The notes under the pieces were generated by a model. That model had not been told where the DNA came from, made no database searches, and saw only the letters and a list, made by a program, of their open reading frames with translations. Positions 4,923-31,839 of a stretch of 32,132 nucleotides of DNA are shown one piece after another (the stretch's first letter is position 1; every line of letters begins with the position of its first letter). The position numbers and the translations under genes were made by a program. The DNA is from Candidatus Schekmanbacteria bacterium (GTDB lineage: Bacteria > CSSED10-310 > JACPHN01), in the NCBI GenBank assembly GCA_016188575.1, contig JACPHN010000020.1, positions 1 through 32,132 on the forward strand, in the 5' to 3' direction.

Positions 4923-7900
4923 ATGCCGACGCTTGAACGCTTCTTCGTCCCGATCATCAGAATGCTTACTGCCGGGGGCCACGCTCTGGCCTATCCGCTC
5001 ATGACTCCCGGGGCGCTGTGGCTGACGGCAAGCGCTCATGACGTGGCGGTGAAGCTTGGCAAGTACGTGGAGACGTGCCTGGAGAGTGGCGATCTGAAGC
5101 CCTTGTTGGCGCTGCTGCCGGCGTTCGAGCGCGTTGAATGCGAGCGAATGGAGCTTGATCTGAGCGTGCACAAGGCGACCGGCGACGCCTACGCGCCGGA
5201 CTTTCCTCTCGAAGCTCCGGTCATCCGCGCGAGCGTCGCTGGCGGCACCATGCTCGTGCATGCTCCGACGATCCCGGCGGAAGTTGTGGTTGGCTCGCCG
5301 GAGGAAACCGTCGCCGCGACCGAGGAGGCGGTGCGCGCGGCGCTGGCGCGCCTGAAGCGGCTGCGAAGCGCTGCGGGGTTCCTTCCCGTGCTCTGGTGGA
5401 CGACCGCCGCGGTGACGCAGGAGGAGATCGTCGTTGCGGTGCCGACCGTAACGGAGCTGGCAGGCAAGTCGTCGGCAGGGCGCGAGAGCCTGCTGGCCCG
5501 CGTGGGTGCTCGCCAGACGCCAGGCGAGGGAGAAAAAACCTGGCAGCGGGACGAGGACGTCCTGCGGCTGGCCCGAGCTGTGCGCGGACCGGACCGCCGC
5601 AGCGTCCTGGTCGTGGGCCCCTCGGGCACAGGGAAATCCGCGGTCATCGGGGAGCTGGGACGGCGAAAAACGGAGCTCGAGCTCGGCAAGCTCGTAATCT
5701 GGAGCGCCGGTGCTGCTGGCATCATACGCGGGTTGACCGCACCGGAGGGCTGGCTGGAGAAGCTCGCGCAGCTCTGCGCCGAGCTCCAATCGACCGAGGC
5801 CGTCTTGCACGTTCGCAATTTCGCGCAGCTCTTCGAGATCGGGCGCTATATTGGGAATGACGTTAGCGTGGGCGAGGCGTTGCGCGACCCCATTGCCCGG
5901 CGCGAGATCCAGGTTGTGAGCGAATGCACGGCCGAGGAGCTGACGCGCCTGGAGCTTCGGTATCCGGCGGCGATCGCCAACATGCACGTGCTGCGCCTTT
6001 CCGAGCTCGACGAGGGGGCGCTGCGTGACGCCGTCCGGCGCCGGGCGGCGGCGCTTGCGGAATCCCGCGGGCTGATGATCTCGGACGCTGCGCTCGAGGA
6101 GGTACTTTCGCTTCATTGGCGTTATGCCTCCCATTCCGGGATGCCGGGGAAAGCGCTACGGTTCTTGAGCAGTCTGCTCGCGGCGTTCTCCCGCGCCGGC
6201 ACCAACGTCGTCCAGCGCGCCGACGTCATTGGCGCTTTCTGCGAGCAAACGGGGATCCCTGCCGCGCTCATCGATCCACAGGTTCCGCTCAATCCGGGAG
6301 CCGTTTACACGTTTTTCAGCGAGCGCCTCCTTGGGCAGCCGGCCGCGGTCAGCATCGTGTGCGAGGTGCTGGCGGCGGTCAAGGCGCGGCTGGTGCAAAT
6401 GGGGAAACCCATCGCTTCGCTCTTCTTTGTCGGTCCCACCGGCGTGGGCAAGACCGAGCTGGCAAAGGCGCTCGCGGCCTTTGTTTTTTCGAGCCCGGAC
6501 CGGATGACGCGTTTCGACATGAGCGAATACGCGACTCCGGGTGCCGTGCTGCGCCTCACCGGCGACGATGCCGGGAGCGAGGGGCGGCTGACTGGTGCCG
6601 TGCGCGAGCAGCCGTTCTGCGTGCTGCTGTTCGATGAGCTGGAGAAGGCCGATTCGTCGTTTTTCGATCTGCTTCTGCAGGTGCTCGGCGAAGGGCGGCT
6701 GACGGATGCGCGCGGCAAGGTAGCTGATTTTTCTGCCGCCATCATCATCATGACCTCCAATCTCGGCACGGACACCTATGTCTCGGGGCGCGTCGGTTTT
6801 GGCGACGGCGACGCCGGCGGCGGCTCAGTGGATCTGCCCAGTCATTTTGAACGCGCGGCTCAGCAGGCGTTTCGCCCCGAGCTGTTCAACCGCATCGATC
6901 GTATCGTGCCGTTTGCCTCGCTGTCGCCGGCTGACGTGAGAGCGGTGCTGGAGCGCGAGCTAGGGCGCCTGGCCGGCCGCGAGCCGGTGCGGCGAGGCGC
7001 GGTGGCGATCGAGGTCGCGGCGGCGGCCAAGGAGATCATCGCGGCGCGCGGTTTCGACGCCAAGCTCGGCGCTCGTCAGCTTCAGCGCGCGGTGAGCGAC
7101 TCGTTACTCGTGCCAATTGCAGAATGCATGAGCCAGTACGGCGGCGCCGGGCGTCTCGTCGCGCGTGCGGAGACGCGGGCCGAGGCCGGTGCGCTGGCCA
7201 TCACGGTGCGTGAAGGCGATCCCTGGCCCGCGGGCGGCCGCATCCGTATCGACGAGCACGGACGAAAGAGAGTTCCAGCGGATGGTGCGACCAGCCGGCG
7301 GTGGTACTTCGACCAGGTGTACTATGGATCGGTCTATTGCCAGCTCCTCAGCCAACTGGACATCTTGGAGCACCGCAAGGAGGCAAGCGGAGAGGCATTT
7401 TGGGAGAGCTCCGAGCAAGCCGCGCGGTATTCACATCTGCTCGCCGTGCGCTGCGAAGGCGAGGCGCTGTTGCGTGAAATCGAGGAGCTCGAGGATCAGG
7501 CCGTGGCACACTTGCTCGGAGCGGGCGGACATGAGGTTGGCGAGGAGCAGCTTGCGCAGATCGATTCCCGACACCACCTCTACAGGGTGCGGCTTTATGC
7601 CGCCGTGTTCCTGGCGGCCAACTGCTGCACGATCGGCGTTTACGGCTCGGACGCATGTGTCGGCGATGCGGCCCGCACCTACATCAGCGTGGCGCGCCGC
7701 CGCGACTACCGCGTGAAGGCGCGACTGGTGCTGGCATGGGACGAGGCGGCGGCCGACCCGGTCGCGGCGCACCCTGAGCGTCCAGGGCGGAGAAAGGAGC
7801 GACCACCAACCGCCCCGGTGGATCCCGTCGCGTTGGCATCGGTCCCGAGCGGCAAGAAGCGTCCGCCTACCGTGGAGTGGAAGCTCGAGCCTGCCATCGC

Positions 7901-8237
7901 TCCCTTCCCGAAGGAGCGCGTGTTCGGGGTCGAGCTGCAGATCGATGGCCCCTGCGCGGCCGATTTCTTTTCGCCGGAGGGTGGTGTCTACGAGTATGGA
8001 GGGCGAGTGGACCAGCGCGTCTTCGTCTGTGTCAGCAAGGGCGGCCTGAATTCCTTTAAGACCCCGGAGAGCTATATGCGCAAGACCCTCGTGGAACCGT
8101 CACCTCGCCGCACCATCTACGCAACGCAGATCCATGACGAGCAGTTTGATGAGCTAGGCCCCGGTGAGTATGACGCGCTGCTCGCCGAGATCCTCCTCTG
8201 GCGGTTGCTCTACTACCTCTCGGAAGAGTTGCTATAG
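4923..8237 (+). CDS. Clp/Hsp100-like double AAA+ ATPase A with release-factor-like C-terminal region
   Basis: 1104 residues. Residues 1-210 are not the Clp_N repeat domain and resemble the N-termini of the next two genes. D1 starts with Walker A G-P-S-G-T-G-K-S (232-239), but the Walker B position reads V-L-H-V-R-N-F, without the acidic pair. There is no ClpB-type middle domain. D2 is complete: linker F-S-E-R-L-L-G-Q, Walker A G-P-T-G-V-G-K-T (504-511), Walker B L-L-F-D-E (568-572), sensor 1 T-S-N (611-613), arginine finger F-N-R-I-D (655-659) and sensor 2 G-A-R (716-718). The D2 pore loop lacks the G-Y-V-G tyrosine (L-T-G-D-D-A-G-S-E-G). Residues about 790-1104 are an extra region resembling the PCRF domain of release factors: A-R-R-R-D-Y-R-V-K near 924 and G-P-C-A-A-D-F-F-S-P-E-G-G-V near 1009. 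There is no GGQ motif. It is first in an operon of three paralogues; cellular role unknown. Confidence 0.85.
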   Translation: MPTLERFFVPIIRMLTAGGHALAYPLMTPGALWLTASAHDVAVKLGKYVETCLESGDLKPLLALLPAFERVECERMELDLSVHKATGDAYAPDFPLEAPVIRASVAGGTMLVHAPTIPAEVVVGSPEETVAATEEAVRAALARLKRLRSAAGFLPVLWWTTAAVTQEEIVVAVPTVTELAGKSSAGRESLLARVGARQTPGEGEKTWQRDEDVLRLARAVRGPDRRSVLVVGPSGTGKSAVIGELGRRKTELELGKLVIWSAGAAGIIRGLTAPEGWLEKLAQLCAELQSTEAVLHVRNFAQLFEIGRYIGNDVSVGEALRDPIARREIQVVSECTAEELTRLELRYPAAIANMHVLRLSELDEGALRDAVRRRAAALAESRGLMISDAALEEVLSLHWRYASHSGMPGKALRFLSSLLAAFSRAGTNVVQRADVIGAFCEQTGIPAALIDPQVPLNPGAVYTFFSERLLGQPAAVSIVCEVLAAVKARLVQMGKPIASLFFVGPTGVGKTELAKALAAFVFSSPDRMTRFDMSEYATPGAVLRLTGDDAGSEGRLTGAVREQPFCVLLFDELEKADSSFFDLLLQVLGEGRLTDARGKVADFSAAIIIMTSNLGTDTYVSGRVGFGDGDAGGGSVDLPSHFERAAQQAFRPELFNRIDRIVPFASLSPADVRAVLERELGRLAGREPVRRGAVAIEVAAAAKEIIAARGFDAKLGARQLQRAVSDSLLVPIAECMSQYGGAGRLVARAETRAEAGALAITVREGDPWPAGGRIRIDEHGRKRVPADGATSRRWYFDQVYYGSVYCQLLSQLDILEHRKEASGEAFWESSEQAARYSHLLAVRCEGEALLREIEELEDQAVAHLLGAGGHEVGEEQLAQIDSRHHLYRVRLYAAVFLAANCCTIGVYGSDACVGDAARTYISVARRRDYRVKARLVLAWDEAAADPVAAHPERPGRRKERPPTAPVDPVALASVPSGKKRPPTVEWKLEPAIAPFPKERVFGVELQIDGPCAADFFSPEGGVYEYGGRVDQRVFVCVSKGGLNSFKTPESYMRKTLVEPSPRRTIYATQIHDEQFDELGPGEYDALLAEILLWRLLYYLSEELL

Positions 8238-8245
8238 GCCCGGAG

Positions 8246-11200
8246 ATGAGCCCCAGGAGAGTGAACCCAGAAGTACAACGCGTCGAGCTCGCATTTCCCG
8301 CCTTGGTGGACCGTAGGTACGACGACCGTGGCATCCGCCTCTACCGAGTCCGGCCGTTGTTTCGCACCGAGCCGGTGGCGCTGAGCCCGAGGTTCGAACG
8401 CGCGGTGACGCGCCTGCGCGCCCACATCCAGGACGACTTCAGCGGCACCAGACTCGCCCAAGACTGGCTCGACGAGCTCTTTTGGCTGCGCTTTGACCCG
8501 GACCTCGCCTTCGACCTGATGCCGATCGACGTCACCGTCGGGCGTGTTTCCCTTGCCGGCAAGGTCGCGGTGGCTACCTTCTCGGTTGCGGGACAGCAAT
8601 TCGCGTGCCTTCCGGGGTTCGAGGCGCACTTTTTCGAGGTCGCGCCGCGCAACGCAGGGGGCCGCGCTTTGCAGGAGGAGCTCGTCGAGCAAGTTACAAG
8701 CTGGGTGCGCGGCCGGAAAAAGCGCTCCAAAGTCTCGGACTGGGAGGTGTTCCTGACGGATTCCGCCGCATTTGTCACTCCCATCCGCGTCGAGGTCGCC
8801 ATCCTGCCAGGCGAGTTCGGACCGGGACCGGTCTCCGCGGCCGAGCGCTATTTCTTTGGCCCGCAGATGCGGGAATTCAGCGGCGAAACGGAGCTTCGGG
8901 CGGTTTCCACCGAGCTCAACCGCCGGTATCCCGTCGATCTGCGCCGCGCGCTTCTCCGCGATCCCCTGGTGGAGTCGCTGGAGCGGGCGCTGCTCGGAGG
9001 TTCCGGCGAATCCGTCGTGCTCGTGGGTCCGCTGGGCAGCGGCAGGACGACGCTGGTGCACGAGGCGCTGGCACGCCACCTGGACCACCGCAAGCTGAGC
9101 CGCGGCGGCCCCGAGTATCGGGTCTTCCACGTCGATCCCAACCGCGTGGTCGCTGGAATGTCGGTCGTCGGGGACTGGGAGCGGCGGTGGGAGGCGATTC
9201 TCGACGAGCTGGGTCGCCGGCGCGGTGGCGGGACCCAGCCGAGCCCACTCCGGATGTTCGTCGATAACCCTCTGGCGCTGCTCCGCGTCGGGCGCACCGC
9301 TCAAGGCGCGCTGTGCCTCGCCGATGTCATGAAGGACTACGTCGACTCCGGGCGGGTGCGCGTCGTGCTCGAAGCCACTCCGCAGGAGTGGCGGCAGGTC
9401 CAGGAACTGGACCGCGGCTTCGCCGATCTGTTTCGGGTGATCCGGGTGCCCCCCGCGACGATCGAGGAGACCGTGCGCATGGTGACCGCGCACCGCCGGC
9501 GCATTGAAACCAGCGAGGGAACGAACCGACCGCACCTGACCAACCTCGGCCTGGATCGCATCTTCTATCTCTACCGCACCTACCTGAGCCAACGGGCGTT
9601 GCCGGGCGCCGTAGTCGACCTCGTCGACGCGGTGACGGCTCGCCCTTCGGAGGCCGGCTCGGAATATAGTTTTTCTGAGGTCGAGGTGGTGAAGACGTTC
9701 AGCAGATCCTTCAATTTCAGCGCGCGAATCGCCGATCCGGATGCGCGCCTCGAGGCCGCCGAGGCCCGCCGCTGGTTTTCGGCGCGCCTCATCGGCCAAG
9801 ACGAAGCTGTGGAGGCTCTGGTCGCGGCGGTTCTCCTGCTCAAGAGCGGTCTTCGCGACCCCGCTCGGCCAGTTGCCACCTACCTGTTCGTCGGCCCCAC
9901 GGGGGTGGGGAAGACGGAGGCCGCCAAGGTTCTGGCCCGCTTTCTGTGCGCGGAAAGGGACTCAAACTTCATTCGCTTCGACCTGAATACGTTTAACGGC
10001 CCGGACGCCGCGGCCCGCCTGATCGGTTCGGACTCCGGCTCCGACGGCCAGCTCACGAGCCGGGTCCAGTTGTTTCCGTTCTGTGTCTTGCTGCTCGACG
10101 AGATCGAGAAGGCGGATCCGTCGGTCCATGATCTGCTGCTGCAGGTGCTCGGGGAAGGACGGCTGACGGATGCTCGCGGGCGCCTGGTCGACTTCACGAA
10201 TGCGATCATCATCATGACGTCGAACGTGGGTGCGCGCGAAGCGTCCCAGGCATTGGGGTTCGCGCAATCTGGCGAACGGCTGGCGACGGCGTACGCCCGC
10301 ATGCTGCAGCGGACGTTTCGCCCGGAGCTCGTCAACCGCATCGATCGCATCGTGACGTTTCGCCATCTCGATGCGGCGGATATCCGCCTCATTGCGCGCC
10401 GCCAAATCGATGAGCTGGTCGCGCGCCCCGGGTTTGCGCGCCGGCACACGATCTTGAACCTGTCCGACGCGTATATGGAACGGGTGGTCGCGCTAGGGTT
10501 CGATCCCAATCTCGGTGCACGGGCGCTTCGCCGGCGCTTGGAAGCCGATATCGCCCGCGCGGCAGCCAGCGTCCTGGCCGCCGATACGTTGCTGTCGCCG
10601 GCGCTGCTCGAGCTCTCGCTGGATGGTGAGACGTCGAGGTCTGCGGTGACGCCGCTGCGTTTCGCTCGACCCTGGGTCAACCTGGATCATCTCGGCACAC
10701 CAGAACCGGTGGAGGCGGCGGTGGTAGCGGCGCTGGAGGAGCGGCTGCTGCGCGCCGAAGAGCGGGTGCAGGCGGCGATCGATACCGAGCAGCGGGCGCC
10801 CCACGTTCACCTCGGCGAGCTCTACATGCTGCGGGATGCGATCTCCGCCAAGACCGCCAAGGCGCGCGCCAAACTTGATTTTCTCGCCAAGCGCCGCGCA
10901 GGCCCGCCGCCGCGGCCCCGCGGCAATGTGCGGAGGCGTCCCGGCCGGTGGCGCGTTCCCGACATCACGCCTGCGTTTTCCGGCCATTCCGGGGAGCTCA
11001 TCGAGCTTCTGCTCAGCCGTTTCGAGGCGGCCCCGGAGGCTCCGTTCAGCGCCGACGACGAAATTACGGCGCTGGCCATGGCGGCCGTCTTCTTGGAGGA
11101 GCAAGCGGAAATCCTGTGTGGCGGCGCCATCGCCGAGGCACTGGCGCTGGCATCTCTGGTCACCGGGCGCGGCACCGAGGAACGCGACTACGTTACTACC

Positions 11201-11590
11201 TTTCAACTGCGCATGCTGGGCCACGCCGGGCTCGGCGACGGAACTGCGGCGGCGGATCTGTCCATCCGCGATTCTGGACGCGTTCACGCCACGGAGGCAT
11301 CGCACCTGCTCCGGGGCGAGGTTGGCATCCACCTCGTCGTGCGCGGCACTGAGCGCATCGTGCCCGTGATTGCGCAACCGGCGGGAGACCGCACCGCAAA
11401 GCCGCCGGTTCATGGCGAGCTGCCTCCCGTCGTCCGCGTGTACTGCCTGACAGCGGCCGATGCCGAGACCGGGGTCCTCTTCGACCTGCGCTCCGGGCTC
11501 GCTCAGCGCCTTCCGCTCGAACCCGAGAACGCCCGCGTGCTCTACTACGCCAGTGTGGCGGCCGCGGCCCGCGGAGGCGCCCCCAAATGA
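8246..11590 (+). CDS. Clp/Hsp100-like double AAA+ ATPase B with release-factor-like C-terminal region
   Basis: 1114 residues, eight bases after gene A. The start is uncertain: GGAG abuts the ATG at 8246, and a GTG 15 bases on has AGGAG one base upstream. Residues 1-235 match the N-terminal plan of A and C (Y-R-V-R-P-L-F near 33, then M-P-I-D-V-T-V near 92). The D1 Walker A is altered, G-P-L-G-S-G-R-T (261-268) with Arg for the catalytic Lys, and Walker B reads F-V-D-N, so D1 probably does not hydrolyse ATP. D2 is intact: G-P-T-G-V-G-K-T (550-557), L-L-D-E (616-619), T-S-N (658-660), V-N-R-I-D (696-700) and G-A-R (757-759). Its pore loop reads I-G-S-D-S-G-S-D-G, again without tyrosine. After D2 come a charged helical stretch (about 820-885), a Pro/Arg linker (885-903) and a region with E-R-D-Y-V near 979 and R-G-E-V-G-I-H-L-V-V-R near 1023, recalling PCRF domains. 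Confidence 0.85.
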   Translation: MSPRRVNPEVQRVELAFPALVDRRYDDRGIRLYRVRPLFRTEPVALSPRFERAVTRLRAHIQDDFSGTRLAQDWLDELFWLRFDPDLAFDLMPIDVTVGRVSLAGKVAVATFSVAGQQFACLPGFEAHFFEVAPRNAGGRALQEELVEQVTSWVRGRKKRSKVSDWEVFLTDSAAFVTPIRVEVAILPGEFGPGPVSAAERYFFGPQMREFSGETELRAVSTELNRRYPVDLRRALLRDPLVESLERALLGGSGESVVLVGPLGSGRTTLVHEALARHLDHRKLSRGGPEYRVFHVDPNRVVAGMSVVGDWERRWEAILDELGRRRGGGTQPSPLRMFVDNPLALLRVGRTAQGALCLADVMKDYVDSGRVRVVLEATPQEWRQVQELDRGFADLFRVIRVPPATIEETVRMVTAHRRRIETSEGTNRPHLTNLGLDRIFYLYRTYLSQRALPGAVVDLVDAVTARPSEAGSEYSFSEVEVVKTFSRSFNFSARIADPDARLEAAEARRWFSARLIGQDEAVEALVAAVLLLKSGLRDPARPVATYLFVGPTGVGKTEAAKVLARFLCAERDSNFIRFDLNTFNGPDAAARLIGSDSGSDGQLTSRVQLFPFCVLLLDEIEKADPSVHDLLLQVLGEGRLTDARGRLVDFTNAIIIMTSNVGAREASQALGFAQSGERLATAYARMLQRTFRPELVNRIDRIVTFRHLDAADIRLIARRQIDELVARPGFARRHTILNLSDAYMERVVALGFDPNLGARALRRRLEADIARAAASVLAADTLLSPALLELSLDGETSRSAVTPLRFARPWVNLDHLGTPEPVEAAVVAALEERLLRAEERVQAAIDTEQRAPHVHLGELYMLRDAISAKTAKARAKLDFLAKRRAGPPPRPRGNVRRRPGRWRVPDITPAFSGHSGELIELLLSRFEAAPEAPFSADDEITALAMAAVFLEEQAEILCGGAIAEALALASLVTGRGTEERDYVTTFQLRMLGHAGLGDGTAAADLSIRDSGRVHATEASHLLRGEVGIHLVVRGTERIVPVIAQPAGDRTAKPPVHGELPPVVRVYCLTAADAETGVLFDLRSGLAQRLPLEPENARVLYYASVAAAARGGAPK

Positions 11591-13857
11591 CCGCATCCGT
11601 GCACTACCCGCTACTCTGCTGGCCCCTCGCCAACGGCCAATTTCTCGGCAGATTGCTGTTTACCCCATATTCCGCCATGGAAAGCGGGGCGAAGAAGCTC
11701 AGATCGGAGCTCGGGGCGCGCGTCAAACGCGAGCTGATTCAGGCCGGCGAGCTGTTCCCGCCACCGATCGATGCGCCCCAGCTCAAGGTCGTGCGCGTGA
11801 CGATTTCGCCCAGCCATCGCTCCGAGGACAGCAGCGTCCTGGCGCCTCGGGCCGTCACGATTTCGATCCCGGCGGTCTGGGGTCAGAGCGACGACGGGTA
11901 CTTCCTTTGCGTGATCCCCGACTTCGACTATCACCTCTATGTCTACGAGGCCAAGAAGATAGAGGCGACGGTGCTTGCCGCAGCCGTCCAGGCGCTTGCA
12001 GAGACGCCACCGGAGGACCTGTACCGCCTGGCGCTGCGGCCTCTCCCGACCCTGGATGTGATCACGGTGCGGTTTCCCGACCGCGATGAAACGGCGGATG
12101 CGCGCGCTGAGCGCCTGCTCGACGAGGGAAAGCTGGCGGCCGTAGCCGACCCCTACCCTCGGCCACGAGCGGTGACGCATCGCAAGGGGGCGCTGCCCGA
12201 GGCCGCTTGGGAGCGATCTGCGCTCGTGGAGCAGGTGGTTCTCGAGCTGACTCGGGAGTACACGAGCCTGCTGCTCGTCGGCGAGCCGGGAACCGGCAAG
12301 AGCGTGATACTCGCGGACGCGGCGGGGAAGGTGCTACGAGCGAGGAGAGACGACGAGAACCCGGCGCGCCGACTCTGGCACACCTCGGCGCGCCGCCTGA
12401 TCGCCGGCGCGAAATACCTCGGCGATTGGCAGGAGCGGTGTGAGGAGCTTTTCGGCTGCCTCGCCCGCCTCGACGGGATCCTGTGGATCAGCGACTTTGT
12501 GGAGCTCATCCGCGCCGGAGGACACAGCCCCGAGGATTCGGTCGCGGCGTTCATGACCCCGTTCCTGGCTGATGGACGGCTCCAAGTCGTCGCCGAGGTT
12601 CGCCCGCGTGAGCTCGACGCCGCGCAGGCCATGCTCCCTGCCTTCACGAGCCGCTTTCGCCGGCTCCTCGTGCCGGACATGGACCGCGCGCAGGTCATGC
12701 GCGTGCTCGACCAGCTCGGCCTCTATACTGCCGAGAGCCTGGGGGTGACCGTCGGCCCGGTCGCTCGCCAGACCGCATATCGGCTGATGGACGATTTTGC
12801 TCGCTACCAGGCATTCCCCGGCAAGGTTGTCGCACTTCTCGGCAAGTGCATCGAGCGGGCGAAGGACACCGGCAGCACCGCGGTCTCACCGGCCGACGTC
12901 GTTGCCGAGCTGTCGCAATCGCTGGGAATGGCGGAAAACCTGGTGCGGGACGACGTGCCCCTGACGGAGGCTGCGATTCGCTCGCATTTTGCCGAGCGCA
13001 TCATCGGCCAGACTCAACCGATCGACGCCTTTTGTCAGGCGCTACTGCAATTCAAGTCCGGTTTGTGCGACCCGCGACGACCGATCGCGACGCTGCTCTT
13101 CACGGGTCCAACGGGCGTGGGGAAGACCGCGGCGGTCCGCGCTCTGGGCGAGCTCATGCACGGCCGCGGGTCGCGTTTCGACCCCCTGGTGCGCCTGGAC
13201 ATGAGCGAATACCAGCATGCGGGCCAGGTCGAGCGGCTGATCGGGACGCGCACCAGCGAGCCGAGCAAGCTAATCCGCGACGTCCGCGAGCGACCCTACG
13301 GCGTCTTGCTTCTTGACGAGATCGAAAAGGCCCACGCGTCGATCTTCGATGCGCTGCTGGGATTGCTCGACGAGGGTGTGCTCCACGACGCCTATGGGCG
13401 CGTCACGGATTTCCGCAGCATGATCATCGTCATGACCTCCAATCTAGGAGCGGAGAAGGGGCGTGCCATCGGCTTTGGGGATGCCGGCGGGAGTAATCGG
13501 TACCTGTCGAGCGTCCGCGAGTTTTTCCGGCCGGAACTGGTCAACCGGCTGGACCATATCGTGGTTTTTCAACCGTTGACCGAAGAGCACGTCCGCGCCA
13601 TTGCGACACGCGAGCTCGGGCTGCTCGGGCGGCGCGAGGGGCTATCGCGGCACCATCTGAAGCTCACGTTTACCGACGGCGTGCGCGATCTGGTGGTGCG
13701 TCGGGGATTCGACCCGGAGCTCGGCGCACGGCCGCTGCAGCGCGCCATCGAGCGTCTCGTCGTCGCGCCGCTCACGCGTTTTCTGCTGCAGCGACCCGGG
13801 CTCGAGGCGCGCACGCTGGCGCTGGAGTGCGATGGCGAGCGGGTTTACGTAAGGTAG
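11587..13857 (+). CDS. Clp/Hsp100-like double AAA+ ATPase C
   Basis: 756 residues. The ATG at 11587 overlaps the stop of gene B by four bases, implying coupled translation. Residues 1-210 share the N-terminal plan of A and B. D1 is the most Clp-like of the three: Walker A G-E-P-G-T-G-K-S (232-239) and pore-loop region L-I-A-G-A-K-Y-L-G-D-W-Q-E-R with its aromatic retained. Walker B reads L-W-I-S-D-F, with Phe in place of Glu. D2 is intact: G-P-T-G-V-G-K-T (507-514), L-L-L-D-E-I-E-K-A-H (Asp577, Glu578), T-S-N (617-619), V-N-R-L-D (652-656) and G-A-R (713-715). The D2 pore loop is I-G-T-R-T-S-E-P-S, without G-Y-V-G. A-I-G-F-G-D near 627 lies where ClpA and ClpC carry their ClpP-docking tripeptide. 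There is no C-terminal extension. It probably works as part of a hetero-complex with A and B (inference from operon and shared design). Confidence 0.87.
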   Translation: MTASVHYPLLCWPLANGQFLGRLLFTPYSAMESGAKKLRSELGARVKRELIQAGELFPPPIDAPQLKVVRVTISPSHRSEDSSVLAPRAVTISIPAVWGQSDDGYFLCVIPDFDYHLYVYEAKKIEATVLAAAVQALAETPPEDLYRLALRPLPTLDVITVRFPDRDETADARAERLLDEGKLAAVADPYPRPRAVTHRKGALPEAAWERSALVEQVVLELTREYTSLLLVGEPGTGKSVILADAAGKVLRARRDDENPARRLWHTSARRLIAGAKYLGDWQERCEELFGCLARLDGILWISDFVELIRAGGHSPEDSVAAFMTPFLADGRLQVVAEVRPRELDAAQAMLPAFTSRFRRLLVPDMDRAQVMRVLDQLGLYTAESLGVTVGPVARQTAYRLMDDFARYQAFPGKVVALLGKCIERAKDTGSTAVSPADVVAELSQSLGMAENLVRDDVPLTEAAIRSHFAERIIGQTQPIDAFCQALLQFKSGLCDPRRPIATLLFTGPTGVGKTAAVRALGELMHGRGSRFDPLVRLDMSEYQHAGQVERLIGTRTSEPSKLIRDVRERPYGVLLLDEIEKAHASIFDALLGLLDEGVLHDAYGRVTDFRSMIIVMTSNLGAEKGRAIGFGDAGGSNRYLSSVREFFRPELVNRLDHIVVFQPLTEEHVRAIATRELGLLGRREGLSRHHLKLTFTDGVRDLVVRRGFDPELGARPLQRAIERLVVAPLTRFLLQRPGLEARTLALECDGERVYVR

Positions 13858-16243: not shown

Positions 16244-19200
16244 CTATGCCACTGCTGCCGCAAAGGCCGCGAACAGGTCGCCCGGCAACGCGTGCGCGAG
16301 GCGCCATGTAACCGCCATAGGTAGCTCGGATTCATGCCGCACGTAGCTGGCGGGGCCGAGGAAGTAAAAGGCGCGTTGGTCGCTCCGCAGGCGAGCGAAG
16401 AGCATGACGGACGAGCCGAGCTCCTCATGGCGTTGGTATCGGTGGCCCGTCTCGCTTGCGGCGCGCGTGACGGATTGGCTCTCCCAGTGGATGAGCTCCG
16501 GGCTGATCGCGAAGTCCCGATAGCGGGTCGTGGGAGAGAACTCCCCCCGCGTCTTGTCGAGCGTGAACGCCAGCAGATCAGCCTCGGCGTCCTTTGCCCA
16601 GTAAACACCGGTCTGCCACGGTGCTGCCTTGGCCCCGCCTCCGACTCCGAAGGCCGCGAGGATTTCGATGCGCGTGTAGCGAGCGTGGACCTGCAGGGGG
16701 ACGTCAGGATGCGTCGCGAGCGGCCACGAAAGGTGCTGGATCCGCTCGGCCAGCGCGTCGAGCAGGGCGATCAGCTCAGCGCACACCTGGGGATGGCTCC
16801 ACAGCAGAGAGCACCCCTCGGCCAAAGTGGCGGACTTCGTCACCGCCTTGTCGACAAGGGATGCGACCACCATGCGCAGGAGCCTTCGCTCTCGCTCGCT
16901 GAGCCGTCGCAGATCGGGGGGACGAGAGGTCTGGAGGAGGCGGCGGACCGTCTGGATCCGCGCGGCGTCGTCGATATGCAGCAATCTTCCGCACGCCCGT
17001 CGCAGCGCTTTTTCTCGAGGCCCGGCCTGCAGGACGGCGAGGCCGGCGTCCTCGCACAGGTCGGACCAGCACTTGCATCCCGCGTAAAGCTCCTCGAGCT
17101 CGAGCCCGGTGGCATCGAGATAGCCCGCGAGCGATGGGGCGTGTACGTTCCGGGCGAGCGCCCTGAGCTCATCCACCTTGGCTGACCACCGCGAAGGCAC
17201 GGATTCGCGGATGCTCGCCAGCACGATCTCCTGCGCGACGCGGTCGAGGTCCATGTGGCAGCCCGCGGGGAGGAACGGGAAGCCTTCGCTCACCTGCTCC
17301 TGGACGTCGCGCCTGCTGCCGCCGAGCAACGCGCGGAAGCGTCTGTCCAGCCGAAACTCGCGGCGGTGGTGCCCTACGAAATCCAGGACCGTGCAGGCCG
17401 ACTTGCCTCTGCTGCGGCGCAGGCCCCGGCCGAGTTGTTGCAGGAACAAAGTCGGGCTGTCCGTCGGGCGCAGCATCAGCAAGGTGTCCACCGCGGGAAC
17501 GTCGACTCCCTCGTTGAAGAGATCCACCGAGAACACGACGTTGACGCGGCGCGCCGCGAGGTCGGTGAGGGCAGCGGTGCGCTCGTCGGGCGGTGTGTCG
17601 GACCAGATGGCAGTCGCGGGGATACCCTGCTGCTGAAACACTCGGGCCATGAACCGCGCGTGGTCCACGCTGACACAGAAGCCGAGCGCCCGCATCGTCG
17701 CGATGGAATCTACGCGACGGTCCAGCTCCTTCAGGACGAGCCGTGCCCACGCGTCGTTGCCCGTGAGCAGGCTCGACAGACCATCGACATCATAGCCACG
17801 CCCTCGGCGCCACGGGACGTCGCGAAAATCGAGCCCGTCGTGGATGCCGTAGTAGATGAAGGGCACCAGACGGCGCTGGTCGATGGCATCCCAGAGCCGC
17901 AGCTCGGCGGCAATGCGGCCGTCGAACCACTCCAGGATCGGCAGCCCGTCGCTCCGCTCGGGCGTGGCCGTGAGCCCGAGCAACTCCGCCGGGCGCAGAT
18001 GCTCGAGCAGTGCCTTGTACGACGCGGCGGCGGCATGATGGAACTCGTCCACTACGATGACGTCGAAGTGCTCGGGATCGATGTGAGCAAGGCCCGTCGC
18101 GCTCAGACTCTGGATGGAAGCGAAAACGTGCTCGAAGCGGTTCGGGTGCTCGCCATCAACCCACAGCTCGCCGAAGGTGTGGTCCCGCAGCGCATATCGG
18201 AGTGTCGCCCGGCTCTGCCGCAAGATCTCCTTGCGATGCGCCACGAAAAGGAGCCTGGCCCGCGGCAGCTCGTCCCGAAGTCGCGCGTAGTCGAGCGCGG
18301 CCATCACCGTCTTTCCGGTGCCCGTCGCAGACACCAGCAGGTTGCGGTGGTGGCCAAGGCGACGAGCGAGCGCCACCTGCTCGAGAAGCCGCTCCTGAAA
18401 CGGTTCGGCACGAAGCTCGGTGGGGCCAAGCACGATGGTGGCGTCCGGTTTGCGCGACGCCTGGCAGCACACCTCGAACTTGTGCCTGTCGTACGGCTCG
18501 AAGTCGTCGCTGTTCCAGTAGCTTTCGAAGACGGCCTGCACCTTGTCGACGACGCTGGCATTGCGGGCCGCAGACACCCGGACGTTCCACTCCAGCCCGC
18601 TGATCTGCGCCGCGCGCGTGAGATTCGAGGAGCCGATGTAGGCGGTGGAGAACCCGGAGTGGCGGTGGAAAAGCCACGCCTTTGCGTGCAGCCGTGTTCC
18701 CGTCAGATCGTAAGAGACCCGGACGTCGCCGCCAAGCTCTCGGAGCGCCTCGAGTGCGCGCGCCTCGGTGGAGGCGGTGTATGTTGTCGTGAGCACTCTG
18801 AGAGCGCGACCGGCGGCGCAGTGATCCTGAAGCGCCGCCAGCATCGGCGCGATCCCGCTCCGGCGAATGAACGCCATCACCAGATCGATCCGGTCGGCGG
18901 AGCAAATCTCGGCGACGATCTGGTGTCCGACGCGCGGTTCGCCGGGCGCATTGGTGAGCAGCGTGGTATCCAGGAGCGGGATCAGCGGCTCACGAATCGT
19001 CTCAGGCCGACCGTCGGGCAAGCGGCGCTCAACGGCCCGAAGGACCTCGCCTGGCATGACCGGTCGCTCGGGGAACAGGTCCGGTACGGCGACCGCCTGA
19101 CCTATGAGGTCGATCAATTTTCGGGCAAGCGACGTGCCCACAGCGGCTCGCTCTCGCTCGTCGATGGCTGCGATTGCCCTCTCGATGATGCGGGCGAGGT

Positions 19201-19339
19201 GCAGTGCGATCCGATCGGCTGCCTCGGCGGGGCGAAGGCCGGTCCTGCGCGTCTCGAGGTGGTCGCTCAGCTCGTGGAGCTCCAACTCCAGCGCCTCGGT
19301 GACCAGCACCTCGAAAAGTCCGCGCTCGCATCTTGCCAT
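16244..19339 (-). CDS. Phospholipase D-like / DEAD-box helicase with DUF3427 region
   Basis: 1031 residues from the ATG at 19339; the longer open frame upstream reads through the PAP2 fossil and is not coding-like. Order: a helical N-terminus (1-120); one PLD nuclease-type domain with H-A-K (218-220) and I-G-S-S-N-L-T; helicase motif I S-A-T-G-T-G-K-T (337-344), motif II D-E-F-H (431-434), motif III L-T-A-T-P; the second RecA lobe with F-N-E-G-V-D-V-P and motif VI Q-Q-L-G-R-G-L-R-R (634-642); then a C-terminal region to 1031 of the DUF3427 type, containing W-E-S-Q and Y-F-L-G-P-A. This is the widespread PLD-DEAD-DUF3427 protein, often found in defence or mobile regions and thought to act on nucleic acids. 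No methylase or other partner lies beside it. The ribosome site is weak. Confidence 0.88.
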   Translation of the reverse strand: MARCERGLFEVLVTEALELELHELSDHLETRRTGLRPAEAADRIALHLARIIERAIAAIDERERAAVGTSLARKLIDLIGQAVAVPDLFPERPVMPGEVLRAVERRLPDGRPETIREPLIPLLDTTLLTNAPGEPRVGHQIVAEICSADRIDLVMAFIRRSGIAPMLAALQDHCAAGRALRVLTTTYTASTEARALEALRELGGDVRVSYDLTGTRLHAKAWLFHRHSGFSTAYIGSSNLTRAAQISGLEWNVRVSAARNASVVDKVQAVFESYWNSDDFEPYDRHKFEVCCQASRKPDATIVLGPTELRAEPFQERLLEQVALARRLGHHRNLLVSATGTGKTVMAALDYARLRDELPRARLLFVAHRKEILRQSRATLRYALRDHTFGELWVDGEHPNRFEHVFASIQSLSATGLAHIDPEHFDVIVVDEFHHAAAASYKALLEHLRPAELLGLTATPERSDGLPILEWFDGRIAAELRLWDAIDQRRLVPFIYYGIHDGLDFRDVPWRRGRGYDVDGLSSLLTGNDAWARLVLKELDRRVDSIATMRALGFCVSVDHARFMARVFQQQGIPATAIWSDTPPDERTAALTDLAARRVNVVFSVDLFNEGVDVPAVDTLLMLRPTDSPTLFLQQLGRGLRRSRGKSACTVLDFVGHHRREFRLDRRFRALLGGSRRDVQEQVSEGFPFLPAGCHMDLDRVAQEIVLASIRESVPSRWSAKVDELRALARNVHAPSLAGYLDATGLELEELYAGCKCWSDLCEDAGLAVLQAGPREKALRRACGRLLHIDDAARIQTVRRLLQTSRPPDLRRLSERERRLLRMVVASLVDKAVTKSATLAEGCSLLWSHPQVCAELIALLDALAERIQHLSWPLATHPDVPLQVHARYTRIEILAAFGVGGGAKAAPWQTGVYWAKDAEADLLAFTLDKTRGEFSPTTRYRDFAISPELIHWESQSVTRAASETGHRYQRHEELGSSVMLFARLRSDQRAFYFLGPASYVRHESELPMAVTWRLAHALPGDLFAAFAAAVA

Positions 19340-19439
19340 TGGCCGAAGTGTAGCCGTAGGGGTGGCGTGGGCGCAATGAAATGAGGTGATGGCCTTGTCG
19401 CCGCACGGGGTGGCACGGGGCGCGATCGTGCGTCGACTG

Positions 19440-19613
19440 TGAGGCCTCTTCGGGAACGCCCGCTGGCGAGCCCCGGACGGATCGGGCCCGGAGACGCAAC
19501 ACACCCAGCGCGACTGCGGTTCCGATGACTGCCCCGGCGAGCACATCGCTGGGAAAATGGACGCCCAGGCAGACCCTGGAACGCGTCAGCGTGGTACTTT
19601 CTCCATCGAACAT
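19440..19613 (-). pseudogene. PAP2 phosphatase C-terminal fossil
   Basis: The minus frame reads T-L-T-R-S-R-V-C-L-G-V-H-F-P-S-D-V-L-A-G-A-V-I-G, followed by a hydrophobic helix and a basic tail. S-R-x5-H-x3-D is the third catalytic motif of PAP2 acid phosphatases. Motifs one and two and all preceding membrane helices are missing, so only the last part survives. It lies between the helicase and the cas fragments. Confidence 0.75.
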
Positions 19614-19798: not shown

Positions 19799-20542
19799 GT
19801 GGATGCGATTCTCCGCCGCGACCGTGTCTCGCTACCCCTGATCGAAGTCGACTTCAGCGAGTTTCCGGACATTGGCAAGGTCAGCTCGCTGGAGGCGCCG
19901 CACCGCATCGCCGACGCGATTCTTCGTGACAGCGTGGACGCCAGTGGCGTCAAGTTCCGCGATACTGCCGTGGGATCCAGCTTCGTGGATGCCAGCCCCG
20001 CCAACGCCACCGGTCTCTTCGAGTGGTGTCCAACGGCGCTTGTCCTTGGGATGTGGGACTCGACAGGGCCCAAGGGCGGCAAGGGAGCCAAGTTCCCGCG
20101 GGCGATCGCCTCGGAGATCGTGGGTATCGACGTGCAGACGGGAGTGAGAACGCAGAGCCGCATCGATCCGCTTCAGATTCCGCTGGACAAGACTGCCGAG
20201 GAGCATCGCGACATCGCTGCGCAGACGACATTGGCTGCCCTGGCATTGTGTGGCGCCATGCTCGCCCAGGCCGATGGTTTCGACCTGCGCTCGCGCTGCC
20301 TGCTGGTCCCTTCGAGCGCCCCACGCTGGGAGCTCATTGGCGCTGCCGCAGACTCCGTCACGCCATTCAGTCTCTCCTCCGCCGAGGCGATCGCGCTCCT
20401 CGAACAGTCGGTTGCCGCCGCGACCGCCCAGGGGCTGCGCTGGGCCAGGACTCCGCTGACCCTCCAACCGATTCCCGATTTGGTCGAGCTCGTTCGCAAG
20501 ACCCGCGAGCTGGCGGCGCGAAGCGTGCCCGCGAGCGTGTGA
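19799..20542 (+). CDS. csb1: Csb1 (Cas7-type) protein of type I-G CRISPR-Cas, shortened and probably decaying
   Basis: 247 residues opening V-D-A-I-L-R-R-D-R-V-S-L-P-L-I-E-V-D-F. Csb1 hallmarks follow: S-L-E-A-P-H-R-I-A-D-A-I-L-R-D-S, C-P-T-A-L-V-L-G-M-W-D-S-T-G-P-K-G-G, R-A-I-A-S-E-I-V-G-I, S-R-I-D-P-L and D-L-R-S-R-C-L-L-V-P. Csb1 is the backbone subunit of the type I-G (formerly I-U) Cascade. Two defects are visible. The usual N-terminal segment appears only as a frame-shifted trace upstream (V-E-Q-V-A-E-T-M-N-E-A at about 19763-19795). Right after S-R-I-D-P-L-Q-I the middle segment, expected to contain an N-H-G-N-like motif, is absent although the frame stays open. The GTG start has no clear ribosome site. 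It is followed directly by a csb2 fragment; no cas3, cas8, cas1, cas2 or array lies nearby. Confidence 0.8.
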   Translation: MDAILRRDRVSLPLIEVDFSEFPDIGKVSSLEAPHRIADAILRDSVDASGVKFRDTAVGSSFVDASPANATGLFEWCPTALVLGMWDSTGPKGGKGAKFPRAIASEIVGIDVQTGVRTQSRIDPLQIPLDKTAEEHRDIAAQTTLAALALCGAMLAQADGFDLRSRCLLVPSSAPRWELIGAAADSVTPFSLSSAEAIALLEQSVAAATAQGLRWARTPLTLQPIPDLVELVRKTRELAARSVPASV

Positions 20543-20652: not shown

Positions 20653-20854
20653 CCCCGGACTTGCGCAAAACGTCGAGCACTCGCCTGCTGCGGAAGGTCC
20701 TGCCCTCGTTATCACCGATGCGGGCGACCCGGTCGTAGGCCGCGTAGACGATCGTCTCGACCTGGGTCGTCGGCTGCAGTTGCCCGCTGCACCCGGCACA
20801 CCAGGCCAACGCGGCCGCCAGGAGCCGCATCGCGGCTGTCCGGGCGCTAGCCAT
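20642..20854 (-). CDS. Small lipoprotein-like ORF, possibly a truncated fragment
   Basis: 70 residues, with the ATG at 20854 overlapping the end of the Uma2 gene by eight bases; a second ATG nine residues in starts a cleaner signal peptide (M-R-L-L-A-A-A-L-A-W). A lipobox-like C-A-G-C-S-G follows. The rest, Y-A-A-Y-D-R-V-A-R-I-G-D-N-E-G-R, faintly recalls YD-type repeats. The 3' end lies across the csb2 break point, so the gene may be the truncated start of something larger. Confidence 0.4.
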   Translation of the reverse strand: MASARTAAMRLLAAALAWCAGCSGQLQPTTQVETIVYAAYDRVARIGDNEGRTFRSRRVLDVLRKSGAKP

Positions 20855-21455
20855 TTCGCAGCGCGCGCAGGTACTCGCGAATGGCGCGGTTGGCGGTGGG
20901 CTGATCCAGAAAGCTCACGAGCTGCTCGAGATCGATGCCGGCGAGGACCTCGCTCTGCACAATCTGCTCGTAGCGCTCCCCGGTGAGGCGATGGACGCTG
21001 ATCGCGCCCCGCCGCCAGAACCAAACCTCGCGAACGCCGAGCTTGCGATACACGTCTAGCTTGTCGACGCCGCCGCTGGTCCACACCACCTCGATTGCAA
21101 GGTCAGGCCGCTCGCGCTTCCCGACCTCGCCGAACACGTAGCACTCGTCCGGCTCGACGCCCCGCTGCGCCTCCTTCCTGGAGAGCGTCCAGGATCCGAA
21201 AACCGTGAATTCGACGCTGCGCTCTAGGCACCACACCTCGACCAGACGTCCGATCACCGATATTATCCGCTCGTGGCCGCGCGACGGGCTCATGAGCTGA
21301 AGGATTCCTTCCAGGTAGGTTATTCGCGGCGCGGACGTGTCACCGCGGATGGCCAGCAACCGCTCGTAGTCCTCCCAGGTGGCACCGCTGAGCACGACGA
21401 AGTGGTCTTCCTGCGGGGTGTCGTCTCGCGTGGCCAGCTCTTCGAGGGCGTACAT
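20847..21455 (-). CDS. Uma2 family (DUF820) restriction-endonuclease-fold protein
   Basis: 202 residues from the ATG at 21455, just after AAGGGAGGG. Family marks are W-E-D-Y-E-R-L-L, Y-L-E-G-I-L-Q-L-M-S-P-S-R-G-H-E, V-E-P-D-E-C-Y-V-F, and the PD-(D/E)xK-type core P-D-L-A-I-E-V-V-W with K and Y-R-K-L-G-V-R-E-V-W-F-W. These are expected catalytic residues of a PD-(D/E)xK nuclease fold, but the cellular role of Uma2 proteins is unclear. It lies 12 bases downstream of the SUKH-NTF2 gene on the same strand, so the two are probably co-transcribed. Confidence 0.88.
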   Translation of the reverse strand: MYALEELATRDDTPQEDHFVVLSGATWEDYERLLAIRGDTSAPRITYLEGILQLMSPSRGHERIISVIGRLVEVWCLERSVEFTVFGSWTLSRKEAQRGVEPDECYVFGEVGKRERPDLAIEVVWTSGGVDKLDVYRKLGVREVWFWRRGAISVHRLTGERYEQIVQSEVLAGIDLEQLVSFLDQPTANRAIREYLRALRNG

Positions 21456-30356: not shown

Positions 30357-30683
30357 TCATCGCGGCAGTCCGAGATGAACCTTGATCGCATCCTCAACGG
30401 CCAGCATATCCGCCTTGGATAGCGTCCCAAGCTGGCCTTTGAGCCGCGACTTGTCGGCAGCCATGATTTGGTCGGCCATTGCCTTGCTACTCTGTCCGCC
30501 CACCGCCACCATAGCCTCGCCGGGGTACTGCCGCCCGGTGTTGCTGGTCAGAGGCACGACCACGACCCGCGCCAGATTCCGGTTAGCGGCGTCGTTGCTC
30601 ACGATCACTGCCGGGCGCGTCTTCCGGATTTCGCTGCCGATTGCCGGATCAAATTCCACCCACCATACTTCACCGCGCAGCAT
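30357..30683 (-). CDS. MazF/PemK family toxin
   Basis: 108 residues from the ATG at 30683. Family marks are M-L-R-G-E-V-W-W-V-E-F-D-P-A-I-G-S-E-I-R, K-T-R-P-A-V-I-V-S-N-D, V-V-V-V-P-L-T-S-N and K-S-R-L-K-G-Q-L-G. MazF toxins are ribosome-independent endoribonucleases, and the conserved Arg of K-T-R-P is present. The gene overlaps the 3' end of the antitoxin by 14 bases. Length is normal and the reading frame intact, so a functional pair is likely. A longer in-frame upstream start would only read through the antitoxin. Confidence 0.9.
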   Translation of the reverse strand: MLRGEVWWVEFDPAIGSEIRKTRPAVIVSNDAANRNLARVVVVPLTSNTGRQYPGEAMVAVGGQSSKAMADQIMAADKSRLKGQLGTLSKADMLAVEDAIKVHLGLPR

Positions 30684-30900
30684 CGGCCATGTCTCCGGCA
30701 AGGGCGTTGCACCACTCCATCGCTTCGGCTTCGCGTGCCTTGTCGGCGGCCATCGCCCGGTAGTCTTCTTCGAGTGACGTATCCACCACATGCGGGCGCA
30801 GCAAGTCCTCAATGAACTGGCTCATGCGCCGCCGCCCTACCGTCCGGTAAAGCCCCTCATACACCGCCTCATCGAGCGTGATCGTCATTTTCCGGTGCAT
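30670..30900 (-). CDS. RHH-type antitoxin partner of MazF
   Basis: 76 residues from the ATG at 30900, preceded by GAGGAGG. The N-terminal M-T-I-T-L-D-E-A-V-Y-E-G-L-Y-R-T-V-G-R-R-R-M forms the beta strand and helices of a ribbon-helix-helix DNA-binding domain. The C-terminal part (E-E-D-Y-R-A-M-A-A-D-K) is acidic and probably wraps the toxin. It is expected to repress its own operon and neutralise the MazF protein. Confidence 0.85.
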   Translation of the reverse strand: MHRKMTITLDEAVYEGLYRTVGRRRMSQFIEDLLRPHVVDTSLEEDYRAMAADKAREAEAMEWCNALAGDMADAAR

Positions 30901-31287: not shown

Positions 31288-31839
31288 TTGAGCACCGCAG
31301 CGATTCAAGAACGTCTGATCACCGCCGACGAGTTCGAGCGCATCGCCCATCGCCTCGGTCGCTCCGAGCTCATCGACGGGAGGATTGTCCAAATGAGCCC
31401 TACCGGTTGGAAACATGGCCGCATAGAAGGTCGCCTTTACAAGCTCATTGAGCGGCATTGCGAAAGGCTCAGTCTGGGTGAGGTGGGCACCGGCGAGGTC
31501 GGCTGCAAGTTGCCCAACGGCCGCGTCCGCGCGCCAGACGTGCTGTTCATTCGCCAGGAAAGACTCGTTGGCCTTCCCGAAGACGGCTTCCTGCCTTTCG
31601 CCCCGGACCTGGCGGTGGAGGTGGTCTCGCCGGACGACAGCCCGCGCGAAGCCCGCGACAAGGCCAACGAGTGGATCGCCGCCGGTTCCCAGGCCGTCTG
31701 GACCGTCGATCCTGCGTCCCGCACCGTCACCGTCTACCAGCTCGCTCAAGTCCCCCGCGTCCTCGGCCCCGGCGAGACTCTCGAGGGCGGAGACGTCCTG
31801 CCCGGCTTCGCCTGCCCGGTGGACGAGATCTTCGGCTAG
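31288..31839 (+). CDS. Uma2 family (DUF820) restriction-endonuclease-fold protein
   Basis: 183 residues from a TTG at 31288, eight bases after AAAGGA; a much longer upstream open frame is read-through of the toxin-antitoxin antisense and the tail duplication. Family marks are A-D-E-F-E-R-I-A-H, E-L-I-D-G-R-I-V-Q-M-S-P-T-G, A-P-D-V-L-F-I and P-D-L-A-V-E-V-V-S-P-D-D with the downstream K-A-N-E-W and V-W-T-V-D-P, the expected PD-(D/E)xK arrangement. Function in the cell is unknown. It differs strongly from the Uma2 at 20847-21455, so they are not recent copies of each other. Confidence 0.9.
   Translation: MSTAAIQERLITADEFERIAHRLGRSELIDGRIVQMSPTGWKHGRIEGRLYKLIERHCERLSLGEVGTGEVGCKLPNGRVRAPDVLFIRQERLVGLPEDGFLPFAPDLAVEVVSPDDSPREARDKANEWIAAGSQAVWTVDPASRTVTVYQLAQVPRVLGPGETLEGGDVLPGFACPVDEIFG

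Follow-up and report, generated by a model that had tools for sequence, protein, structure and literature searches.

The gene at the centre of this study, ORF A, lies in a 32,132-nucleotide contig of Candidatus Schekmanbacteria (the window, meaning the whole stretch of DNA that was analysed) and codes for an Hsp100-type ATPase with a long region after its motor domains. Pfam assigns to the protein an AAA_16 domain, an AAA_2 domain at residues 495-660 and a ClpB_D2-small domain at residues 667-737, and a single-sequence search yields zero matches beyond residue 737. An earlier note, made by eye from the letters, had likened this region to the PCRF part of release factors and remarked that it carries no GGQ.

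4923-8237, forward strand: ORF A, Clp/Hsp100-type double AAA+ ATPase with a release-factor-derived C-terminal module (1104 aa; ORF list and Pfam)

Profile searches, profile-profile alignment and fold comparison were applied to the A tail. A profile of the eight closest tails, run against 177,635 distinct PDB sequences, gave seven matches at E<10, all of them RF2, with E of about 0.03. We gathered homologues of A from other genomes (35 in the A alignment) and aligned their tails, using hhalign, with a small set of 11 RF1 and RF2 sequences from the host phylum; the resulting P values were 6e-7 with 35 tails and 1.8e-7 with 31 tails, and reversed controls reached about 4e-3. An AlphaFold2 model of residues 760-1104, built from eight sequences (pLDDT 74.6, pTM 0.72), had RF1 or RF2 as its top 27 Foldseek matches in the PDB, with E values from 7e-6, and the next protein followed at E 0.4. 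VIA-align superposed the model on RF2 across the whole module at Z 12.7, a value near 13 being within reach of helical bundles, while the match to domains 2 and 4 is independent of the helices. The alignment to RF1 (Z 11.7) paired 138 residues, covering model positions 138-345 and chain positions 107-355; about 100 RF1 residues in this range have no partner, which is what the loss of domain 3 would produce. The release-factor likeness proposed earlier was therefore borne out, and the profile-profile and fold comparisons that the earlier note had suggested both returned release factors rather than a blank or an unlike fold.

We also considered whether a helical bundle next to a small alpha/beta domain might resemble release factors by chance or convergence, with no homology involved. 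Pairwise identity between the A tail and release factors is only about 13%, PCRF does not exceed the Pfam cut-off on any single A or B tail, and the 31-row A profile places an unrelated coiled coil (PspA) first among PDB sequences, with RF2 second. We nevertheless regard this explanation as highly improbable, since the sequence-only, profile-profile and fold tests concur independently, the reversed controls are negative, and an Hsp100 paralogue of the same genome does pass the PCRF cut-off. This paralogue, a 1153-aa protein from another contig, was the third match over the cut-off in a PCRF search of the host's own genome, the other two being RF1 and RF2. It scores 35.7 bits against PCRF and 2.8e-8 against NCBIfam prfB, the latter far under that model's full-length cut-off, and its tail has 27 matches among PDB sequences, all of them release factors (best E 2e-4). 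Taken together, the profiles and the structural model strongly support descent of the C-terminal ~320 residues of A from a bacterial release factor of class I, with RF2 as the nearest match.

The alignments also resolve the layout of the module. Residues ~784-1104 of A are confirmed as release-factor domains 1 and 2 and the end of domain 4, from which the GGQ domain 3 has been deleted:

7272-7622, forward strand: helices like release-factor domain 1, residues ~784-900, with an FW..A motif (AlphaFold2 model, whole-module VIA-align match to RF2, hhalign)
7623-7739, forward strand: first part of the domain 2-like region, residues ~901-939, TYISVARRRDYRV (hhalign; strand-helix-strand in the AlphaFold2 model)
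7746-7853, forward strand: low-confidence insert, residues ~942-977 (AlphaFold2 pLDDT < 50)
7914-8039, forward strand: second part of the domain 2-like region, residues ~998-1039, with G1009, E1019 and G1021 and a shortened stop-codon loop (alignments, hhalign)
8040-8108, forward strand: short linker at the site of the GGQ domain 3 of release factors (E-to-R distance)
8109-8234, forward strand: domain 4-like end with R1063 and D1072 (R.Y...D.R) and a final helix (alignments, VIA-align)

In the hhalign alignment TYISVARRRDYRV of A pairs with MYLRLAERRSWRV of the release factors and VELQIDGPCAADFFSPEGGVYE with IANVTGKKVFGSLKYERGVHR, so that the two segments quoted in the earlier note do fall at the release-factor positions it had guessed. 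Its "helical stretch" corresponds to domain 1, including an RF2-like FW..A motif (FWESSEQAA), and to these segments the present analysis adds the last ~40 residues of A, which correspond to release-factor domain 4. Eight residues are invariant in the eight-row tail alignment, five of which (G1009, E1019, G1021, R1063 and D1072) are release-factor landmarks; the corresponding patterns, G..aY..L..E.GvHR and R.Y...D.R, are also seen in true release factors of the same phylum.

These landmarks, kept in the 35 A homologues, allow the deletion to be measured. From the E of E.G to the R of R.Y there are 41-48 residues in the 35 homologues and 129-130 in the 11 true release factors, while the R-to-D spacing is 9-11 residues in the former and 11-12 in the latter; the GGQ domain was thus excised between two conserved anchors. 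The loop that reads stop codons is shortened as well, and none of the motifs PxT, SPF or HTS occurs at its position in the 35-homologue alignment. With both the stop-codon loop and the GGQ domain deleted, we judge from the sequences that stop-codon reading by the A tail is unlikely and peptide release very unlikely. Lacking the two defining features, the tail is no release factor in the functional sense, and the residues that are still conserved look like those of a structural core. Of the functions we weighed, peptidyl-tRNA hydrolysis by a still active release or rescue factor, which has nothing but the ancestry in its favour, is accordingly the least credible: the tail is too short to hold a GGQ domain, and GGQ strings are found in only 2/35 A tails and 1/16 B tails, one of them (in homologue L125) at an unrelated position. 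At the site of the excision many A homologues (L122, L124, L125, L128, L149 and others) carry a basic motif resembling P..IHRK.F; the window has a degenerate form of it (PESYMRK), and many Planctomycetota lack it.

The earlier note had not remarked on the tail of the neighbouring gene. Downstream of A, on the same strand, two further ATPase genes follow almost without a gap, and the first of them has a tail related to that of A:

8246-11590, forward strand: ORF B, second Clp/Hsp100-type ATPase, starting 8 nt after A (1114 aa; ORF list, Pfam)
10568-11587, forward strand: tail of B, residues 775-1114, a probable diverged release-factor module with E1025, G1027, R1064 and D1080-L-R1082 (hhalign, alignment)
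11587-13857, forward strand: ORF C, third Clp/Hsp100-type ATPase, without a release-factor tail and overlapping B by 4 nt (756 aa; ORF list, Pfam)

In hhalign comparisons the B tails gave P values of 2e-5 to release factors, 4e-7 to the PCRF-matching paralogues and 1e-5 to the A tails, with reversed controls at 0.15-0.34 (0.15-0.2 for the first two comparisons). Most or all B homologues also keep E1025, G1027, R1064 and D1080-L-R1082. A profile of the B tail found no release factor among PDB sequences, and its AlphaFold2 model (pLDDT 48) gave no usable fold. When spacing motifs in B were compared with shuffled sequences, a loose pattern stayed near the shuffled level and a stricter one did not, the loose patterns being weakly specific. 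On these alignments the B tail is probably a diverged copy of the module in A. C terminates just past its D2-small domain. In a tree of A, B, C and their relatives, B and C form clades with support of 1.0 each and A a clade with support of 0.15, and the deep branching order is unsettled. The PCRF-positive paralogue (L004:6483-9941, contig C225) is solitary, without an adjoining B or C, and is possibly close to an ancestral single-gene form.

All three proteins share a Clp-type D2 domain with its D2-small domain according to Pfam, as well as a homologous N-terminal domain (hhalign of the N-terminal families, P from 4e-11 to 2e-7; reversed controls 0.1-0.4). The corresponding landmarks of A are:

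4923-5537, forward strand: N-terminal domain, residues ~1-205, homologous in A, B and C (hhalign, Pfam)
5616-5639, forward strand: D1 Walker A GPSGTGKS, residues 232-239 (kept in 35/35 A homologues)
5799-5834, forward strand: D1 Walker B position AVLHVRNFAQLF, residues 293-304, without the acidic pair (missing in 35/35 A homologues)
6432-6455, forward strand: D2 Walker A GPTGVGKT, residues 504-511 (A homologue alignment)
6549-6602, forward strand: D2 pore-loop region LRLTGDDAGSEGRLTGAV, without the canonical GYVG aromatic (A homologue alignment)
6633-6638, forward strand: D2 Walker B acidic pair DE, residues 571-572 (A homologue alignment)
6921-7133, forward strand: ClpB_D2-small domain, residues 667-737 (Pfam PF10431)

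The D2 domain retains its Walker A motif in the 35 A proteins and, among the homologues listed, the DE of Walker B; B and C follow the same D2 pattern among the sequences listed, and B retains one acidic residue in D1. Judged by these motifs, the D2 motor is intact and the D1 Walker B degenerate in all three Hsp100-type ATPases. The canonical D2 pore loop of ClpB carries the aromatic of GYVG, which is lost across the 35 A proteins, so that threading of a substrate by D2 is doubtful. A thus shares with ClpB, ClpA and other Clp/Hsp100 proteins the two AAA+ modules, the D2-small domain and the D2 motor, and differs from ClpB and ClpA in having no Clp_N among its Pfam matches, in the D1 Walker B and the pore loop, in co-occurring as three paralogues, and in the release-factor-derived tail of A and probably B. 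A falls far below the NCBIfam equivalog cut-offs of both ClpB (235 bits against 1232) and ClpA (220 against 993).

Operons in which the A, B and C genes mostly overlap by short stretches are present in the window, in one deltaproteobacterial MAG, in Aquabacterium and two other genomes of its class, in one unplaced bacterium and in ~10 Planctomycetota genomes. In the order of Phaeodactylibacter (Bacteroidota) the genes are scattered, with B and C mostly apart from A. Of the 298 genomes surveyed there, 19 have a full-length A, and exactly these 19 also have a full-strength B, a raw count that ignores kinship; one further genome holds only a 99-aa fragment of A, and C was confirmed in 5 of the 19 genomes with A and B. 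The occurrence of A is patchy, at 20/298, 3/369 and 15/392 genomes in the groups surveyed. We saw no further gene that adjoins the operon in every lineage, and plasmids gave no match at the strict cut-off. A subtilase encoded next to A in some Bacteroidota raised the possibility of a protease partner; we set it aside, as it apparently starts with a signal peptide (by eye) and was not found next to A-B-C operons. In 7/10 Bacteroidota loci a double-AAA protein with AAA_lid_6 (CbbX/EccA-like) is encoded upstream of B, usually divergently (L175:3047-5689, with equivalents in L176, L177, L179, L180, L181 and L184); it is a possible fourth partner in that phylum.

The co-occurrence of the A gene with two sister ATPases suggests a three-subunit machine. 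The homology, the lost domains, the state of the motor motifs, the operon arrangement and the joint occurrence were all observed by computation. From them we infer that A, B and C may assemble as a mixed ring, in which D1 would bind nucleotide without hydrolysing it and D2 would hydrolyse ATP to drive remodelling. The inactive release-factor tails carried by A and B would anchor this machine to its target, for which the ribosome close to the A site or a protein that partners release factors is the likeliest candidate. That A is a subunit of such an A-B-C remodelling ATPase, with the tails as docking module, is the reading we favour, at about even odds. The earlier note had conjectured ribosome contact or a part in rescue or quality control. 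The A tail may dock to the ribosome or to some partner in translation; the ribosome is the natural guess given the ancestry of the tail and its retained domain 1, which in release factors is a ribosome-contacting part. The more specific picture, in which the machine docks through its non-decoding tails on stalled or dormant ribosomes and remodels them with ATP, is rather doubtful at present.

Since both functional tips have been lost, purely structural reuse is almost as likely as ribosome docking. The module would then act off the ribosome as a scaffold, in the pairing of A with B, in ring assembly or in the capture of a non-ribosomal adaptor, which we hold to be a real, if tentative, possibility. 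It would account for the retention of core residues without the ribosome-facing tips, and for the presence of the module on both A and B, which always co-occur; on the other hand, the full arrangement of domains 1, 2 and 4 exceeds what a simple dimerisation unit needs, and domain 1 itself contacts the ribosome in release factors. It is also conceivable, though improbable, that A-B-C is an anti-phage or inter-bacterial conflict system whose release-factor tail serves as a sensor of, or decoy for, attacks on translation. The patchy distribution and the defence-like genes elsewhere in the window would fit such a role, but PADLOC (2023 library) matched generic AAA domains only and no effector gene accompanies the operon.

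Release-factor domains have been put to new use before. PrfH is a release-factor-derived rescue factor (PMC6514570, PMC9223846); factors of this type retain the GGQ domain, whereas the A tail has lost it. Dom34/Pelota are catalytically inactive relatives of termination factors (PMC6514570), and the A tail likewise appears, from its sequence, to lack peptidyl hydrolase activity, but they have an unrelated archaeo-eukaryotic fold and no Hsp100 fusion. The closest relatives of the A tail remain RF1 and especially RF2 (PF03462, PCRF), which share its domain 1 helices with FW..A, domain 2, domain 4 end and landmark residues, and which differ in possessing the GGQ domain and stop-codon loop and in not being fused to an Hsp100 ATPase. 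We found no description of an Hsp100-release factor fusion in the open-licence literature, subscription journals being outside the scope of the search; PCRF is unmentioned in PMC6514570 and PMC7159879, and a ribosome-directed chaperone class of this kind is absent from the open-licence literature searched.

A class-I release factor seems here to have been converted into a non-catalytic part of a chaperone-type motor, and several bacterial phyla have retained it alongside two partner ATPases. Should the A tail bind ribosomes, it would link an Hsp100 motor directly to bacterial ribosome quality control; should it act off the ribosome, it would be a clear instance of scaffolding by a repurposed translation-factor fold. 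The question is testable in cultured hosts, namely Phaeodactylibacter xiamenensis KD52 and Aquabacterium sp. A7-Y.

Several other genes of the window were noted in passing. Positions 19799-20542 encode part of Cas_GSU0053/Csb1, a type I CRISPR protein; the Pfam match begins at profile position 65 of 168, so the piece is apparently truncated, a CRISPR remnant. A defence-like protein of 1100 aa, combining PLD-nuclease, ResIII helicase and DUF3427 domains, is encoded at 16244-19546 on the reverse strand, and one PemK/MazF-like toxin and two Uma2-family putative nucleases are encoded at 30357-30812 (reverse strand), 20847-21455 (reverse strand) and 31300-31839 (forward strand).
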